Assembly (NCBI RefSeq): GCF_004208525.1
Contig: NZ_SGIT01000001.1
Span: 1,178,001-1,242,000 of the forward strand
Length of the DNA stretch: 64,000 nt
Source: Sphingobacterium corticibacterium
GTDB taxonomy: Bacteria; Bacteroidota; Bacteroidia; Sphingobacteriales; Sphingobacteriaceae
Reading direction: 5' to 3'
Part shown: positions 25,898 through 50,717 of the stretch, piece after piece
Layout of the letters: each line of letters opens with the position of its first letter
Numbering within the stretch: the first letter of the stretch is position 1
The notes under the pieces: generated by a model
The model's database searches: none
What the model was told of the DNA's origin: nothing
What the model saw: the letters and a program-made list of their open reading frames with translations, nothing else
Position numbers and translations under genes: made by a program

Positions 25898-26149
25898 TGC
25901 ATAGCAAAGGTAAACACACCTTCATTATTTAGAATTATTCTGACATCATTGTTTTGTCATATTTTAGCAGATAAAATTATCGATATTGGCGTTAATTGAA
26001 AAAATCTGTTCCATGAATCCTGTTATCCCAGTTTAGATTGCAAATTATATACGACTGATCCCAAGCTTTTCCGAAGTTCGGGATTGTTTATCTTGCCAAA
26101 ATAGCCCCATCACCAGAGCGTATTATCTTTCAACTTTCAACACAAAAAC
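25898..26149. other. Gene-poor region upstream of the efflux operon
   Basis: No intact gene. On the - strand, 26099-26024 reads as a protein-like stretch of about 26 codons (GKINNPELRKSLG and on to a stop) with an in-frame stop just upstream, which could be the tail of a lost gene. It is AT-rich near the efflux operon start. Confidence 0.35.
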
Positions 26150-26298
26150 AAAATATCTTCCGTTTCATTTAGATGATGTACATTCACTCTCAAAAATTTA
26201 TCTCGATAACACCGCGAGAAGATTGGAAAACAGAATTTTTCTGCACCTTCGACAAAGGCACCAATATCTATTTTATTATAAAGGTCGGGGAGAATGTG
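26150..26298 (+). pseudogene. Internally deleted relic of a DUF4143 AAA ATPase gene
   Basis: This stretch keeps the promoter units and first codons of the ATPase gene at 43901 (AATATCTTCC 23 bp before GATGTACATT, then a match to its 5' codons), and then jumps from about 26218 to a segment matching 44814-44888. Over 26241-26298 about 51 of 58 bases match that gene, including CTGCACCTTCGACAAAGG. About 900 bp of the middle, with both Walker motifs, are missing. An open frame of 118 codons runs through it (26173-26529) but its second half is unrelated to any ATPase, so I treat it as non-functional. Confidence 0.75.
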
Positions 26299-43358: not shown

Positions 43359-43476
43359 GTTAGTTATTATGAGGTTATATCATAACGCTCAACCAACGAG
43401 ACAAGTTCGAAACTGAGAATCGGACCATACATATGTTGCCCGCGCACGAATATCTTATGCGGTAGATTGGTCGAAA
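43359..43476 (+). pseudogene. Internally deleted relic of the DUF4143 ATPase gene
   Basis: Fourteen bases of the ATPase start region (GTTAGTTATTATGA, as at 43891-43904) are fused directly to a copy of the last about 100 bp of the same gene (43373-43476 matches 45017-45120 with only a few differences). About 1.1 kb between these points is missing. The relic lies directly upstream of the intact gene and makes 100-bp direct repeats flanking it. Confidence 0.85.
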
Positions 43477-43557
43477 CCCCTATTTTAGATGCTGGGCGCA
43501 TAGCGTTGTTCTTCCAGTACCACAGAGAAGCAATGATTCAAAAGTACCATCAGCATA

Positions 43558-43790
43558 TTACAATTCGGAAGGTAGTGCATGATTCGACACCCCATACACA
43601 CTTGGCGATATGCCAAAATGCTTCTTAAACAATGTACTAAAATAGCTATGATTTGAATATCCAATCTTATCTGCAATACAATACAGCGTGAGTCCGTTTC
43701 CACTTCCCGAAGCCAGCAGTTCCAAGGCTTTTGACATACGAACCTCCGTAACAAAGCCGTGTATCGTTCTACCGAACAACACTGCTGGTC
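43558..43790 (-). pseudogene. AraC-family regulator C-terminal fragment
   Basis: The reading frame encodes about 75 residues with the second half of an AraC-type DNA-binding domain: VRMSKALELLASG and IADKIGYSNHSYFSTLFKKHFGISPSVY. The sensor domain and first helix-turn-helix are missing, and an in-frame TGA precedes VLFGRTIHGF, so there is no proper start. It is a remnant stranded between the ATPase relic and the intact ATPase gene. Confidence 0.8.
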
Positions 43791-43821
43791 AGCATCAAAC
43801 ATGATCTTTCAACATAAAAAC

Positions 43822-43890
43822 AAGATATCTTCCATTACAAACGGAAGATATCTTCCGTTTAATCTAAAAGATGTATATTTGGTCTGAAAA
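43822..43890 (+). promoter_or_regulatory. Three 23-bp promoter units before ATPase gene 1
   Basis: AAGATATCTTCC starts at 43822 and again at 43845; a degenerate unit, AAGATGTATATT, starts at 43868. All are 23 bp apart. The third unit contains a -7-like TATATTTG (43874-43881), and the ATG at 43901 is 19 bp beyond it. The junction of units 1 and 2 forms a perfect 22-bp palindrome (43839-43860, half-site AAACGGAAGAT). Confidence 0.75.
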
Positions 43891-43900
43891 GTTAGTTATT

Positions 43901-45109
43901 ATGATACGGCAAGAAGAAATTTCGATAGTGATTGATGCGCAACAGGAGACCTTTCTGAAACAAGAACCCGGATTTTTGCGGGATGCACTGCCTCATATTC
44001 CTATTGCAGATTCATTTGCATCCATTATCACCGGCATACGCAGGTGCGGCAAAAGCACCTTGTTGTTGCAGTTACTTCGAAGAGATTATCAAGAGGCCAT
44101 TTATCTCAATTTTGATGACATACGTCTCTCTGGATTCGAAGATACAGATTTACCCCGATTACATCGGGAAATCGAACGACGTGGGATAAACATTCTATTC
44201 TTTGACGAAATACAAATCGTAACTGGGTGGGAAAAGTACATAAACCAGCTGTTACGCGAGGGCTATAAAATATTTATAACAGGTTCCAATGCATCGATGC
44301 TCAGTACCGAATTGGGCACTCATTTAACAGGCAGGCACCTTTCCATGGAGCTATTCCCTTTCTCCTATTCGGAATTTATACGCTTTAAATCTCTAGACAA
44401 CGGAGAAGAAGCTGTAATGACCTACCTCAAAAATGGCGGAATTCCCGAATATGTGAAGACAGGTATTCCGCTTATCTTGAACACACTGGTCGATGATATA
44501 TTAATGAAAGATATTGCAGTTCGACACGCTGTTCGCGATATCAATTCACTGCGACAACTGGCAGCTTTCTTGATTACGAATATAGGCAACTTAGTTTCTG
44601 CCAGCAAATTAGTAGGTATGTTCGATATTAAGTCCCCAAACACCTTCTTGGAGTATTTCTCGTTTCTTAAAGATGCTTATTTGATCGATTTTGTTCCTAT
44701 ATTCAATCATTCGCTAAAAGTTCAAGTGCGTAATCCAAAAAAAATTTATGTAATGGATATGGGACTCTACACGGAAAACGCGATATCGCTAAGTGATAAC
44801 ACCGGAAGACGATTGGAGAACTTGGTTTTTCTGCACCTTCGACAAAGGTATCAACATATATTCTATTATAAAGATCGCGGAGAATGTGATTTTATTGCTA
44901 TGGAAAGAAACAGTGTAAAAGAAGCTATTCAAGTATGTCTTTCCATAAACGACGAAAATTTTAATCGGGAATATAATGGATTGTTAGAAGCTATGCAACA
45001 TCTCGGCCTCAAAGAAGGTTATATCATAACGCTCAACCAACGAGACAAGTTCGAAACTGAGGATCGGACCATACATATGTTGCCCGCGCACGAATATCTT
45101 ATGCGGTAG
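43901..45109 (+). CDS. AAA-family ATPase with DUF4143 domain (copy 1)
   Basis: A 402-residue cytoplasmic ATPase of the PF13173 (AAA_14) plus DUF4143 type. Walker A GIRRCGKST is at 45-53, Walker B ILFFDEIQ near 100-107 and the sensor motif ITGSNAS near 130. DUF4143 covers about 200-370, with a C-terminal restriction-endonuclease-like stretch ECDFIAMERNSVKEAIQVC. The function of this family is unknown although it is abundant in Bacteroidota. The open frame begins at 43871, but that lies inside the -7 box; the ATG at 43901 fits both promoter and homologue. It is about half identical to copy 2. Relics of the same gene are at 26.2 and 43.4 kb. Confidence 0.92.
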   Translation: MIRQEEISIVIDAQQETFLKQEPGFLRDALPHIPIADSFASIITGIRRCGKSTLLLQLLRRDYQEAIYLNFDDIRLSGFEDTDLPRLHREIERRGINILFFDEIQIVTGWEKYINQLLREGYKIFITGSNASMLSTELGTHLTGRHLSMELFPFSYSEFIRFKSLDNGEEAVMTYLKNGGIPEYVKTGIPLILNTLVDDILMKDIAVRHAVRDINSLRQLAAFLITNIGNLVSASKLVGMFDIKSPNTFLEYFSFLKDAYLIDFVPIFNHSLKVQVRNPKKIYVMDMGLYTENAISLSDNTGRRLENLVFLHLRQRYQHIFYYKDRGECDFIAMERNSVKEAIQVCLSINDENFNREYNGLLEAMQHLGLKEGYIITLNQRDKFETEDRTIHMLPAHEYLMR

Positions 45110-45144
45110 ATTGGTTGAAAATCGTATCATCTTGACTAAATATA

Positions 45145-45903
45145 TTAGACTTCAGCCCCACCATAGATATGATCCAACATGCGGTATAACTTTGGATGAT
45201 CCTCTTTCAGCAAGCTGGGCTTCTTGAAGAAATACTCGGATACAACCGCAAAAAATTCTGCCTCATTGGTACCCGCATACTCCCGGATATCTGATTCGCC
45301 CGTTCGGATCTCGCGAATGGTTTTATGCATCTCTTTGATCCAAGGCTCAATCAATGACTTCGGGATAAGATACTCTGGAATGCCATCCACTTCGCCATCG
45401 GCCTTATCGATGAGGTGTACAAACTCGTGAATGGCCGTATTGCCTGCGGAAAAGTTCAAAAAACCATTTCGCAAAGCCTGCTGTGATAGGATCATCTTAC
45501 TGCTGAGGGCCCCCGAACCGACCATCCCGGCGACGTTCCTTTCTTCGCTCGCTGTACTGAAGCGCTCATCAAAATAATCAGGATACACCAGTACTTCGGT
45601 GAGATTGCGATAGACCCATAGTTTGAAATGAAAAAGTGGAATGGTAGCACTCGCCGCAATAAGTACTTTGTCCTCATCGGTAACCACTGCACCTTTTTCT
45701 GCCGATATCTTGGTATGTTCTAAAAAGTAGCGTACCCTTGTCAAGAACGTTTGCTGTTCCTCGGTAGGCAGATGACGATAAAACCGAACTTGCTTCTCGA
45801 GGATCTCTCCCATCACCTCGTCCGTGAAGGCAGCTGGTACTGGAATTTTCTTCGGACCGCCATACCTAAAAATGTACACAATAAGCACAATGGCAAAAAG
45901 CAC
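45145..45903 (-). pseudogene. Truncated second copy of the MtfA-like peptidase gene
   Basis: Positions 45150-45924 match 49928-50702 (the intact gene) base for base apart from about five substitutions and without gaps. The copy lost its ATG and first nine or so codons: upstream of position 45924 the frame runs into DUF4260 sequence and a stop, leaving only GTG (45903) in the middle of the membrane anchor. The C terminus is also altered, ending GAEV instead of GAEES. The catalytic part with HEFVH is intact, so an enzyme lacking part of its anchor might still be made. Confidence 0.85.
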
Positions 45904-45924
45904 GAGGCCAGTGATAATGAAATA

Positions 45925-46010
45925 ATCCAGCCGAGGTGTGTATGCTTGAAATCATCAAGGTACTTTAGTCCATAGCCGAAAATCCGGTCCATATCCATTT
46001 GCTTGGTCGT
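45925..46010 (-). pseudogene. Internally deleted DUF4260 relic
   Basis: Positions 45925-45992 match the 3' part of the intact DUF4260 gene (48753-48820) almost perfectly. The next 18 bases match its start-codon region (49088-49105) at 15 of 18 positions, with ATG changed to ACG. Thus about 270 bp of the middle are gone. It is fused to the truncated mtfA copy on its left. The rest of the gap to the ATPase promoter (46011-46237) shows only a short membrane-protein-like stretch on the - strand (near 46095-46030) and no intact gene. Confidence 0.7.
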
Positions 46011-46237
46011 ATCTTCGGGCGGCCATCAGCTTGCTAATATAAAAACCCGAATAGCCATAGTGGTGCTTTGAAAGATATAGGCGAGAAGGTAATAGGCGAA
46101 CACGTACATGATATGACAGGTCGTTTTGAGCGTATAAATCAAAACAACGAATATTTCGGACTGGAGGGAATCAACCGAGGGCGCAATCCGCTTTCAATAT
46201 AGCCAATATTTCAAGATAGAAATTGATACGATTAAGT

Positions 46238-46299
46238 ATCCATTTGTAATGGAAACTTTTATCCATTTGTAATGAAAACTTTTGTACATTTGTAATGGA
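46238..46299 (+). promoter_or_regulatory. Three 23-bp promoter units before ATPase gene 2
   Basis: TCCATTTGTAATGGA at 46239, TCCATTTGTAATGAA at 46262 and TACATTTGTAATGGA at 46285 are spaced exactly 23 bp. Each is an inverted repeat (TCCATT, TGT, AATGGA). The third contains a -7-like TACATTTG (46285-46292), and the ATG follows at 46318. The complement of this motif recurs as TCCATTACAAACGGA (43831-43845) in the other ATPase promoter. Confidence 0.8.
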
Positions 46300-46317
46300 T
46301 ACCAAAATGCAGACAAT

Positions 46318-47529
46318 ATGGTTACAGAAGAAACAATAGAACAAGTCATCACGGCTCAACGAGCAAACATGGCACATCGCGGTACAGGGCAACGCAGAGA
46401 GGCTCTTTCTTCGTTACCAGATTTAGCCAACTTTGCACTAATCGTATCCGGCATAAGACGTTGTGGGAAAAGCACCCTGCTTTATCAGCTTTTGGATGAG
46501 CGATATCAAGATGCGTTATATCTAAACTTTGAGGACCCTAGGTTATATGGGTTTGATCTGAAAGATTTTGTACGTCTGGATAAGATCATTGCACGTCTTG
46601 GAACCCGGGTTTTACTATTTGATGAAATACAAATTATAACCGACTGGGAACGATATGTACGGCAAAAACTCGATGAATCTTTCCAGATCGTTATTACTGG
46701 ATCAAATGCCAGTTTGCTGAGTAAAGAACTTGGCACGAAACTCACCGGACGGCATATTACAAAAGAGCTCTTTCCGTTTTCTTTCGAAGAGTTTGCTGAA
46801 TTTACTACTAAAAATCATTCACCAGAGTCTTTGGCAGATTATCTAGAAATAGGCGGTTTCCCCGAATACGTCAAACAGGGTATTGAGGATATTCTGCATT
46901 ATGTTCTGGAAGATATTCTATTACGTGACATCGCCATACGCCATAATATACGTGACGTAGACAAACTTCAAAAACTGGCCCTATACCTTATTTCCAATGT
47001 GGGAAAACCAGTTAGTGCCAATAGACTTAAAAGTATAGTTGATATCGGGTCCACCAGCACCGTCACAGAGTACTTATCTTATCTTGAGGATAGCTATTTG
47101 ATACAATTGATTCCCAAGTTTGATTATTCTCTCCGAAAACAGGCTATCAATCCGCGGAAGGTATATGCTATTGATACCGGGCTCATCAAAGTAAATTCCT
47201 CATCTTTTACAAGAGATGATGGAAGGCTTCTAGAAAATCTTGTCTATACACACCTTCGACGGTCATATCAGCAGATCTATTATTTCTCAGAACAACGAGA
47301 GTGCGATTTCGTTGTCTTTGACAAAACCGACATCCAAGCAGCTATACAAGTTTGTTACACGCTAAATCAGGACAATCTTGAAAGAGAAATGAACGGGTTG
47401 TTGGAGGCCATGGATTTTTTCGGTCTCCAGGAAGGTACCATCGTGACATTTTCCCAGACAGACCGATTTATCGAAGACGGTAAGATCATCCATGTTATAC
47501 CCGCACATGCTTATTTAGCAACGGATTAA
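46318..47529 (+). CDS. AAA-family ATPase with DUF4143 domain (copy 2)
   Basis: A 403-residue paralogue of the ATPase at 43901. Walker A GIRRCGKST is at 45-53, Walker B VLLFDEIQ near 100, and ITGSNASLLSKELGTKLTGRH is the strongly conserved sensor region. The DUF4143 domain ends in RECDFVVFDKTDIQAAIQVC and an HVIPAHAYL tail shared with copy 1. The ATG at 46318 (MVTEETIEQ) is chosen because the upstream ATG at 46282 precedes the -7 box. It stands alone, under its own repeat-bearing promoter, which suggests autoregulation or control by a shared factor. Physiological role unknown. Confidence 0.92.
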   Translation: MVTEETIEQVITAQRANMAHRGTGQRREALSSLPDLANFALIVSGIRRCGKSTLLYQLLDERYQDALYLNFEDPRLYGFDLKDFVRLDKIIARLGTRVLLFDEIQIITDWERYVRQKLDESFQIVITGSNASLLSKELGTKLTGRHITKELFPFSFEEFAEFTTKNHSPESLADYLEIGGFPEYVKQGIEDILHYVLEDILLRDIAIRHNIRDVDKLQKLALYLISNVGKPVSANRLKSIVDIGSTSTVTEYLSYLEDSYLIQLIPKFDYSLRKQAINPRKVYAIDTGLIKVNSSSFTRDDGRLLENLVYTHLRRSYQQIYYFSEQRECDFVVFDKTDIQAAIQVCYTLNQDNLEREMNGLLEAMDFFGLQEGTIVTFSQTDRFIEDGKIIHVIPAHAYLATD

Positions 47530-48736: not shown

Positions 48737-49105
48737 CTACTTTTTTCTTCCGATCCAGCCGAGGTGCGTATGCTTGAAATCATCACGGTACTTTAGTCCA
48801 TAGCCGAAAATCCGGTCCATGGCTGCATGGCCAAAAAGGATGATGCCCACCAAGGAAAATACCGGGATCTGGAAGATGAATCCCGCAGCTACAACCAACA
48901 ATGCCGTGAGTTTATGGTGAAAAATATTGTACGTAACGGCGCCTACACTGGTATTTATCGCGTAGGCCAACATGGAAATATCGGGCAATAAAAGGCAAGC
49001 TGGGAAAACCCACCAGGCGTAATCCAGTTGCGTAAACAATAAGATAGCGAGTAAAAACTGTCCTATTTCTTCGAGTTTCAATAGTGTATCCATTTGTTTT
49101 GTCAT
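48737..49105 (-). CDS. DUF4260-family membrane protein
   Basis: About 122 residues from the ATG at 49105 (MTKQMDTLLKLEE); the frame is open to 49138. Three or four hydrophobic helices (EIGQFLLAILLFTQ, WWVFPACLLLPDISMLAYAIN, KLTALLVVAAGFIFQIPVFSLVGIILFGHAAMDR) and the conserved end GYGLKYRDDFKHTHLGWIG identify the family, whose function is not known. The Crp-type regulator gene ends 60 bp upstream and is co-oriented, so the two probably form a unit. Fragments of this gene occur at 45.9 kb and possibly 26.4 kb. Confidence 0.88.
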   Translation of the reverse strand: MTKQMDTLLKLEEIGQFLLAILLFTQLDYAWWVFPACLLLPDISMLAYAINTSVGAVTYNIFHHKLTALLVVAAGFIFQIPVFSLVGIILFGHAAMDRIFGYGLKYRDDFKHTHLGWIGRKK

Positions 49106-49919: not shown

Positions 49920-50717
49920 TCAGGATTCTTCAGCCCCACCATAGATATGATCCAACATACGGTATAACTTTGGATGATCCTCTTTCAGCAAGCTGGGCTT
50001 CTTGAAGAAATACTCGGATACAACCGCAAAAAATTCTGCCTCATTGGTACCCGCATACTCCCGGATATCTGATTCGCCCGTTCGGATCTCGCGAATGGTT
50101 TTATGCATCTCTTTGATCCAAGGCTCAATCAATGACTTCGGGATAAGATACTCTGGAATGCCATCCACTTCGCCATCGGCCTTATCGATGAGGTGTACAA
50201 ACTCGTGAATGGCCGTATTGCCTGCGGAAAAGTTCAAAAAACCATTTCGCAAAGCCTGCTGTGATAGGATCATCTTACTGCTGAGGGCCCCCGAACCGAC
50301 CATCCCGGCGACGTTCCTTTCTTCGCTCGCTGTACTGAAGCGCTCATCAAAATAATCAGGATACACCAGTACTTCGGTGAGATTGCGATAGACCCATAGT
50401 TTGAAATGAAAAAGTGGAATGGTAGCACTCGCCGCAATAAGTACTTTGTCCTCATCGGTAACCACTGCACCTTTTTCTGCCGATATCTTGGTATGTTCTA
50501 AAAAGTAGCGTACCCTTGTCAAGAACGTCTGCTGTTCCTCGGTAGGCAGATGACGATAAAACCGAACTTGCTTCTCGAGAATCTCTCCCATCACCTCGTC
50601 CGTGAAGGCCGCTGGTACTGGAATTTTCTTCGGACCGCCATACCTAAAAATGTACACAATAAGCACAATGGCAAAAAGCACGAGGCCAGTGACAATGAAA
50701 TAGGATGAATCATTCAT
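49920..50717 (-). CDS. mtfA: MtfA-like M90 zinc peptidase, membrane-anchored
   Basis: A 265-residue protein. One membrane helix at about 7-26 (FIVTGLVLFAIVLIVYIF) anchors a cytoplasmic M90 domain with the zinc motif HEFVH (in NTAIHEFVHLID, about 175) and the downstream glutamate in NEAEFFAVVSEYFF. In E. coli the family member MtfA cleaves peptides and is regulated by binding the repressor Mlc; the partner here is unknown. The start ATG (MNDSSYF) is present, unlike in the copy at 45.1 kb. It is divergent from the fecR gene. Confidence 0.9.
   Translation of the reverse strand: MNDSSYFIVTGLVLFAIVLIVYIFRYGGPKKIPVPAAFTDEVMGEILEKQVRFYRHLPTEEQQTFLTRVRYFLEHTKISAEKGAVVTDEDKVLIAASATIPLFHFKLWVYRNLTEVLVYPDYFDERFSTASEERNVAGMVGSGALSSKMILSQQALRNGFLNFSAGNTAIHEFVHLIDKADGEVDGIPEYLIPKSLIEPWIKEMHKTIREIRTGESDIREYAGTNEAEFFAVVSEYFFKKPSLLKEDHPKLYRMLDHIYGGAEES

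Follow-up and report, generated by a model that had tools for sequence, protein, structure and literature searches.

A 64,000-nucleotide stretch of Sphingobacterium corticibacterium DNA (NZ_SGIT01000001.1, positions 1,178,001 to 1,242,000 of the forward strand; referred to as the window, with positions counted from its first letter) contains two ATPase genes, gene 1 and gene 2 (Table 1), each preceded by three DNA units exactly 23 bp apart. What reads these units? An earlier note on the window invoked a dedicated regulator, which could be the ATPase itself. This proposal is supported at the level of sequence by the covariation of the half-sites with the recognition helix of the ATPase and by the restriction of the motif to ATPase promoters. 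We consider it very probable that the 23-bp units are tandem operators of negative autoregulation by the multimerized ATPase.

Tandem palindromes at a 23-bp spacing precede both ATPase genes

The promoter of gene 2 contains three palindromic units of the form TCCATT-NNN-AATGGA at a spacing of exactly 23 and 23 bp, units 2 and 3 being 96% and 74% identical to unit 1. Their cores (TCCATT, TCCATT and TACATT) begin at 46239, 46262 and 46285. The promoter of gene 1 carries a diverged array, which reads AAGATATCTTCCATTACAAACGG (43822), AAGATATCTTCCGTTTAATCTAA (43845) and AAGATGTATATTTGG (43868). Direct reading and repeat measurement agree on these units and their spacing, as had been claimed. In both genes the third unit overlaps a box of the TAnnTTTG type, TACATTTG in gene 2 and TATATTTG in gene 1, and the gene 1 core TCCATTACAAACGGA (43831-43845) agrees with TCCATTTGTAATGGA, taken as its reverse complement, in 14 of 15 bases; both features had been pointed out in the earlier note and were found again. 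The description of the genes as half-identical is borne out by their proteins, which are 50% identical. The conserved start codons are the ATG at 43901 (gene 1) and the ATG at 46318 (gene 2), mechanically listed open reading frames (ORFs) beginning within the promoter.

Using an iterative weight-matrix fit, the unit was defined as a palindrome, N1 N2 N3 A T T - NNN - A A T N3' N2' N1'. The inner ATT forms the common core, and N2N3 vary by locus (CC, TC, CT, GT, GC, AC and others). Between gene 2 and its orthologs in two relatives, changes were found at 5/9 positions in the 3-nucleotide spacer versus 3/36 in the half-sites (P = 0.004). A variable spacer between constrained half-sites is the pattern expected from protein contacts on two half-sites.

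The array is restricted to ATPase promoters

Genomes were scanned by pattern searches. With up to two mismatches allowed, gene 2 is the only place in the S. corticibacterium genome that has the tandem pattern, and the exact single palindrome occurs twice. A genome-wide regulon was rejected as an explanation, since the exact palindrome outside gene 2 lies within a coding gene, as does a site resembling that of gene 1 (C1:849472). A blind scan of 395 Bacteroidota genomes was carried out with the pattern alone, allowing one mismatch, and the reversed pattern served as control. Eight genomes gave matches, three of them exact (the S. corticibacterium genome included), and each of the three exact tandem matches immediately precedes a gene for a relative of these ATPases. 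This was the case for one of the five one-mismatch matches in other genomes; the remaining ones are at chance level, because the reversed control pattern matched in three genomes. The question raised by the earlier note, whether the motif is equally frequent at unrelated promoters, is thus answered in the negative.

Spacing is a character of the clade

Relatives were gathered from 301 genomes of the same family, together with 80 named loci from a bacterial and archaeal genome collection. For 89 non-redundant genes, the 110 bp upstream were searched for the best 15-base self-match at lags of 8 to 44 and compared with dinucleotide shuffles. By far the strongest self-match was obtained at lag 23 (mean 10.4 versus 7.7 shuffled, z = 18.7), where 28 of the 89 genes matched at 13 or more of 15 bases, compared with 0.1 expected from the shuffles. 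Lag 23 reached this level in one of 187 intergenic control promoters taken from the same loci. The share of promoters with a match of at least 13 at any lag from 16 to 45 was 46% among close relatives, 59% among distant DUF4143 genes and 4.3% among the controls. The distant genes have exact spacings of their own, mainly 32 or 40 bp, and a second, weaker peak at lag 33 (z = 8.3) belongs to a sister clade. A 23-bp periodicity is therefore present upstream of homologs across phyla and domains. As a general property of DUF4143 genes, however, it holds for one clade and fails for the sister clades, in which the units are spaced by 32/33 or 40 bp.

In a tree of 110 proteins, in which L002 and L007 sit on very long branches with unsure placement and many rows are without a spacing call, the spacings of 23, 32/33 and 40 bp are explained by two changes, the minimum. 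The 23-bp genes occupy one side of a branch with a support of 100, though drawn from both domains of life. An insertion of 10-13 residues in the AAA domain, at a position corresponding to residue 171 of gene 2, is found in the 33-bp clade (L103, L105-L126) and in no 23-bp member. This insertion goes along with the switch from a 23-bp to a 32/33-bp spacing, a correlation drawn from a single split.

In several genes of the 40-bp clade (L172, L178, L182, L186 and L187), the third unit (TACGGTATACATGAAACTT type) includes the start codon and codons 2-3, so that the operator would constrain the N-terminus of the protein.

The array meets the core promoter in bacteria and archaea

The 23-bp array was found in Bacteroidota, Pasteurellaceae (L075), Treponema (L097), Termititenax (L080) and Fibrimonadaceae (L129), and also in records of Nanoarchaeia, Micrarchaeota, Nanoarchaeota and Pacearchaeota; many of these records are metagenome bins, so that a handful of host assignments may be mistaken. 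It is the gene, not the host, that the array goes with: the bacterial and archaeal promoters on which it is seen are unrelated.

TAnnTTTG is the known -7 promoter element of Bacteroidota (PMC7366714). Of 46 such boxes, 19 begin exactly 7 bp before a unit center (modulo 23), which is one of 23 phases (nominal P ~2e-14), and 32 fall within four phases, a register that is not fully independent, as the box lies within the assigned unit in about a quarter of cases. Boxes downstream of both assigned units prefer the same phases. Where the arrays of Bacteroidota overlap TAnnTTTG, archaeal arrays abut a TATA-like box: in the relatives L084, L087, L089, L092 and L108, an apparent TATA box was observed within a few bases downstream of the last 23-bp palindrome. 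In both domains, then, the array lies on or next to the core promoter, a placement that speaks for repression.

The recognition helix of the ATPase covaries with the half-sites

Both proteins match AAA_14 and DUF4143 (PF13173 and PF13635, above the Pfam cut-off) and have intact Walker A and B motifs (GIRRCGKSTL and FDEIQ); a search of NCBIfam with them returned no match. The AlphaFold2 (AF2) model of gene 2 (mean predicted local distance difference test score, pLDDT, 87) comprises the AAA domain, a winged helix-turn-helix (wHTH, residues 214-267) and a C-terminal domain. The wHTH is made up of helices 214-226, 234-241 and 246-258 and a strand at 262-267, with a pLDDT of about 90. From its motif and the published description, the C-terminal domain appears to be PD-(D/E)XK-like. 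E306 and D330 of the nuclease motif are kept, and the lysine is replaced, the sequence being QVC in 49/54 members of the 23-bp clade. Owing to this loss, proteins of that clade may mainly bind DNA instead of cutting it. The 32-bp clade and a paralog in the S. corticibacterium genome (L217-L220 and L002) have the intact E-x-K motif, and QVC, QVA or QVS is found instead in the 23-, 33- and 40-bp clades.

Operator and protein distances were compared among 48 non-redundant members, with whole-protein distance controlled for (partial Mantel test). Of all 9-residue windows along the protein, 240-248 scored best, a stretch that takes in the turn and the first residues of the recognition helix. This helix gave a partial r = 0.22 (P = 0.001), compared to P = 0.86 for the AAA domain and P = 0.95 for the C-terminus. 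For the variable dinucleotide of the half-site, residue 247 ranked first of 399 columns: Q247 occurs with CT (TCTATT) in 4/4 cases, R247 with GT (TGTATT) in 3/3, and T247 mostly with YCATT. Covariation with the recognition helix favors the ATPase itself, over a neighboring or host regulator, as the reader of the units.

Operators and gene move together

Two relatives carry orthologs of gene 2 (95-96% protein identity) in different flanks, operators and ORF alone being common to them. The common segment begins just 5' of the first operator and stops at the stop codon, indicating that the operators and the gene move together.

Proposed mechanism and alternatives

We postulate that the product of each gene would bind the palindromic half-sites (N1 N2 N3 A T T) before its own gene directly, via its own wHTH, several protomers sitting side by side, presumably cooperatively, on two to four units. 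Since the last unit falls on the -7 box, the bound protomers would block RNA polymerase, and negative autoregulation would result. ATP binding or hydrolysis, or an infection signal, might then change the oligomer state or the affinity for DNA and release the gene. Several points weigh against this model. Units 2 and 3 of gene 1 are poor palindromes, and the members L085, L093 and L098 are without a clear array. The covariation is statistically clear but modest, with kinship between the sequences only partly corrected, and the margin of residue 247 over the next column is small (0.373 versus 0.368). Moreover, the ATPase could conceivably act as an activator instead of a repressor.

The overlap of operator and promoter would be expected of any repressor, and upstream of gene 1 there is a short ORF (43485-43802, minus strand), AraC-type by impression and without Pfam match. 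A separate host or neighboring transcription factor, such as the product of this AraC-like remnant near 43.5-43.8 kb, could accordingly be imagined to bind the repeats. However, the arrays accompany the ATPase in Bacteroidota, Pasteurellaceae and archaea on unrelated promoters, they covary with the ATPase's own recognition helix, and operators and ORF are all that gene 2 has in common with its orthologs. We regard a separate regulator as very improbable. Even less credit, close to none, can be given to an origin of the repeats as a slippage minisatellite or a miniature inverted-repeat transposable element (MITE)-like element comparable to BrickBuilt of Porphyromonas gingivalis, although the unit of BrickBuilt is likewise 23 nucleotides long (PMC4596501). 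The arrays consist of two to four palindromic units, in which the spacers are free and the half-sites constrained, the spacing is kept where the sequence is not, and exact arrays occur at ATPase promoters only; the sequence is unlike that of BrickBuilt, whose description makes no mention of ATPase genes (PMC4596501).

A further explanation is that the array is primarily a functional DNA target, for instance a mark for self-recognition, a site of homing or recombination or a platform on which the ATPase gathers to sense infection, gene control being secondary. The PD-(D/E)XK-like fold of the protein speaks for this, as does the mobility of the cassette, since the moving unit runs from just before the first operator to the stop codon and strains differ in the copy that they carry at one genomic site. 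Yet the catalytic lysine is lost from most of the clade, the last unit is in register with the core promoter, and the three genomic sites of gene 2 showed no target in common. Together, these observations make a primary role as DNA target unlikely, and autoregulation by the ATPase is preferred.

Autoregulation of this kind might extend to the whole PDC-S01 superfamily, to which both genes are assigned below. These tens of thousands of mobile ATPase genes of bacteria and archaea could form self-contained regulatory cassettes, in which a simple code, placed where the recognition helix begins, lets each ATPase read its own tandem operators, the geometry of the oligomer sets the spacing (23, 32/33 or 40 bp, the 33-bp clade having the AAA insertion of about 13 residues), and the defense protein is at rest, and sensing, while bound to the operators as an oligomer. 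We put this forward tentatively, as a possibility with somewhat less than even prospects. If true, regulation would work in any host, whatever its transcription machinery. It is unusual for bacteria and archaea to have an operator array in common on promoters that are unrelated, and the case illustrates how a mobile gene can carry its control along into any host. For the very common PDC-S01, the operators point to a testable activity, sequence-specific DNA binding, and supply a ready target DNA together with predicted specificity residues.

Relation to known systems

Both proteins match the PADLOC profile PDLC04787 of PDC-S01 (E = 6.3e-114 and 5.8e-114, positions 13-407 and 24-407 of 412). According to the published account, PDC-S01 is a single-gene phage-defense candidate of PADLOC, an ATPase fused to a domain of the PD-(D/E)XK superfamily; it was reported as the fourth most common defense in prokaryotes, with about 39,000 instances in one survey, and has repeatedly been transferred between domains, while the defense activity of most such candidates awaits validation (PMC12988326). 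Genes 1 and 2 resemble PDC-S01 in the near full-length profile match and in the combination of a Walker ATPase with a PD-(D/E)XK-superfamily domain. Operators or autoregulation are not described in the passages of that account that were consulted (PMC12988326). Nor was any earlier description of operators of these ATPase genes found in the open-access literature covered, in which a single paper names DUF4143; this agrees with the earlier note's statement that none was known.

The best folds for the gene 2 model are the archaeal AAA+ ATPases SSO1545 (2FNA) and PABY2304 (2QEN), with Z-scores of 14.9 and 14.8 over about 256 residues covering AAA domain and wHTH. Their identity to the gene 2 protein is about 20%, and the C-terminal part is barely covered. 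STAND proteins are the next nearest solved folds, and a sequence search of the PDB revealed no relative. To our knowledge, no operator is known for SSO1545 or PABY2304. In type Ia partition systems, the DNA-binding Walker ATPase ParA assembles on sites in its own promoter and autoregulates its synthesis. The working principle proposed here is similar; however, the ATPase is of an unrelated type, and neither a partner gene nor a centromere was seen here.

IniR of mycobacteria, a signal transduction ATPase and transcription factor with an SSO1545-like domain, binds a promoter and controls transcription (PMC5760070). The gene 2 protein is akin to IniR as an ATPase with an SSO1545-like domain that is predicted to act on a promoter. 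In contrast, IniR has its DNA-binding domain, of the SdiA-like type, at the C-terminus behind a MalT-like domain and activates another operon (PMC5760070). The BrickBuilt MITE is also a 23-nucleotide tandem unit in Bacteroidota (PMC4596501) and differs from the ATPase arrays in sequence, location and nature. By inspection the units are unlike the AGAYCATARTATCCTCTCRTRTG type, and a leader, a tail or terminal inverted repeats were not seen. BrickBuilt was rejected as a source of the repeats on sequence and location.

Table 1. Features of the two ATPase genes and their predicted operators in the window.
Feature	Positions	Strand	Basis
Decayed gene 1-like copy: promoter piece with units 2 and 3 and C-terminal coding relic	26134..26298	+	sequence comparison
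Gene 1 predicted operator unit 1, palindrome TTCCATT-ACA-AACGGAA at 43830-43846	43822..43844	+	read from sequence, repeat measurement
Gene 1 predicted operator unit 2, degenerate	43845..43867	+	lag-23 self-match 14/15
Gene 1 unit 3, merged with -7 box TATATTTG (43874-43881)	43868..43890	+	read from sequence
Gene 1: AAA_14 + DUF4143 ATPase, PDC-S01 profile	43901..45109	+	Pfam, PADLOC
Gene 2 predicted operator unit 1, TCCATT-TGT-AATGGA at 46239-46253	46237..46259	+	repeat measurement
Gene 2 predicted operator unit 2, palindrome at 46262-46276	46260..46282	+	repeat measurement
Gene 2 predicted operator unit 3, palindrome at 46285-46299; left half-site doubles as -7 box TACATTTG (46285-46292)	46283..46305	+	repeat measurement
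Gene 2: AAA_14 + wHTH + DUF4143 ATPase	46318..47529	+	Pfam, AF2 model, PADLOC
Putative wHTH of gene 2, residues 214-267	46957..47118	+	AF2 model, covariation
Putative recognition helix of gene 2, residues 246-258	47053..47091	+	AF2 model, covariation
Residue 247 of gene 2	47056-47058	+	top-ranked covarying column
Putative C-terminal PD-(D/E)XK-like domain of gene 2, QVC instead of ExK, without catalytic Lys	47218..47526	+	AF2 model, motif

Decayed copies and repeats around the genes

The earlier note had also reported a decayed third copy near 26.15 kb with two units at the same spacing. This relic was recovered: units 2 and 3 are still 23 bp apart, and the coding part consists of 94 bp of the C-terminal end, 84% identical to gene 1. 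In a related genome (L221, G226:C51), an ortholog of gene 2 lies 47 bp from a segment homologous to window position 25965, near the decayed copy, suggesting that one site is used by different ATPase copies. A further relic, 5' of gene 1 (43361-43476), resembles an internally deleted copy of gene 1, in which the end of the gene (45016-45120, 98% over 105 bp) is preceded by 14 bases identical to the start region of gene 1. The region of an M90 metallopeptidase gene is present twice in the window (45150-45924 and 49928-50702, 99.4% identical over 775 bp), and an additional 68-bp repeat was found at 45925-45992 and 48753-48820 (97% identical). Together, these repeats point to a recent duplication around the ATPase genes.
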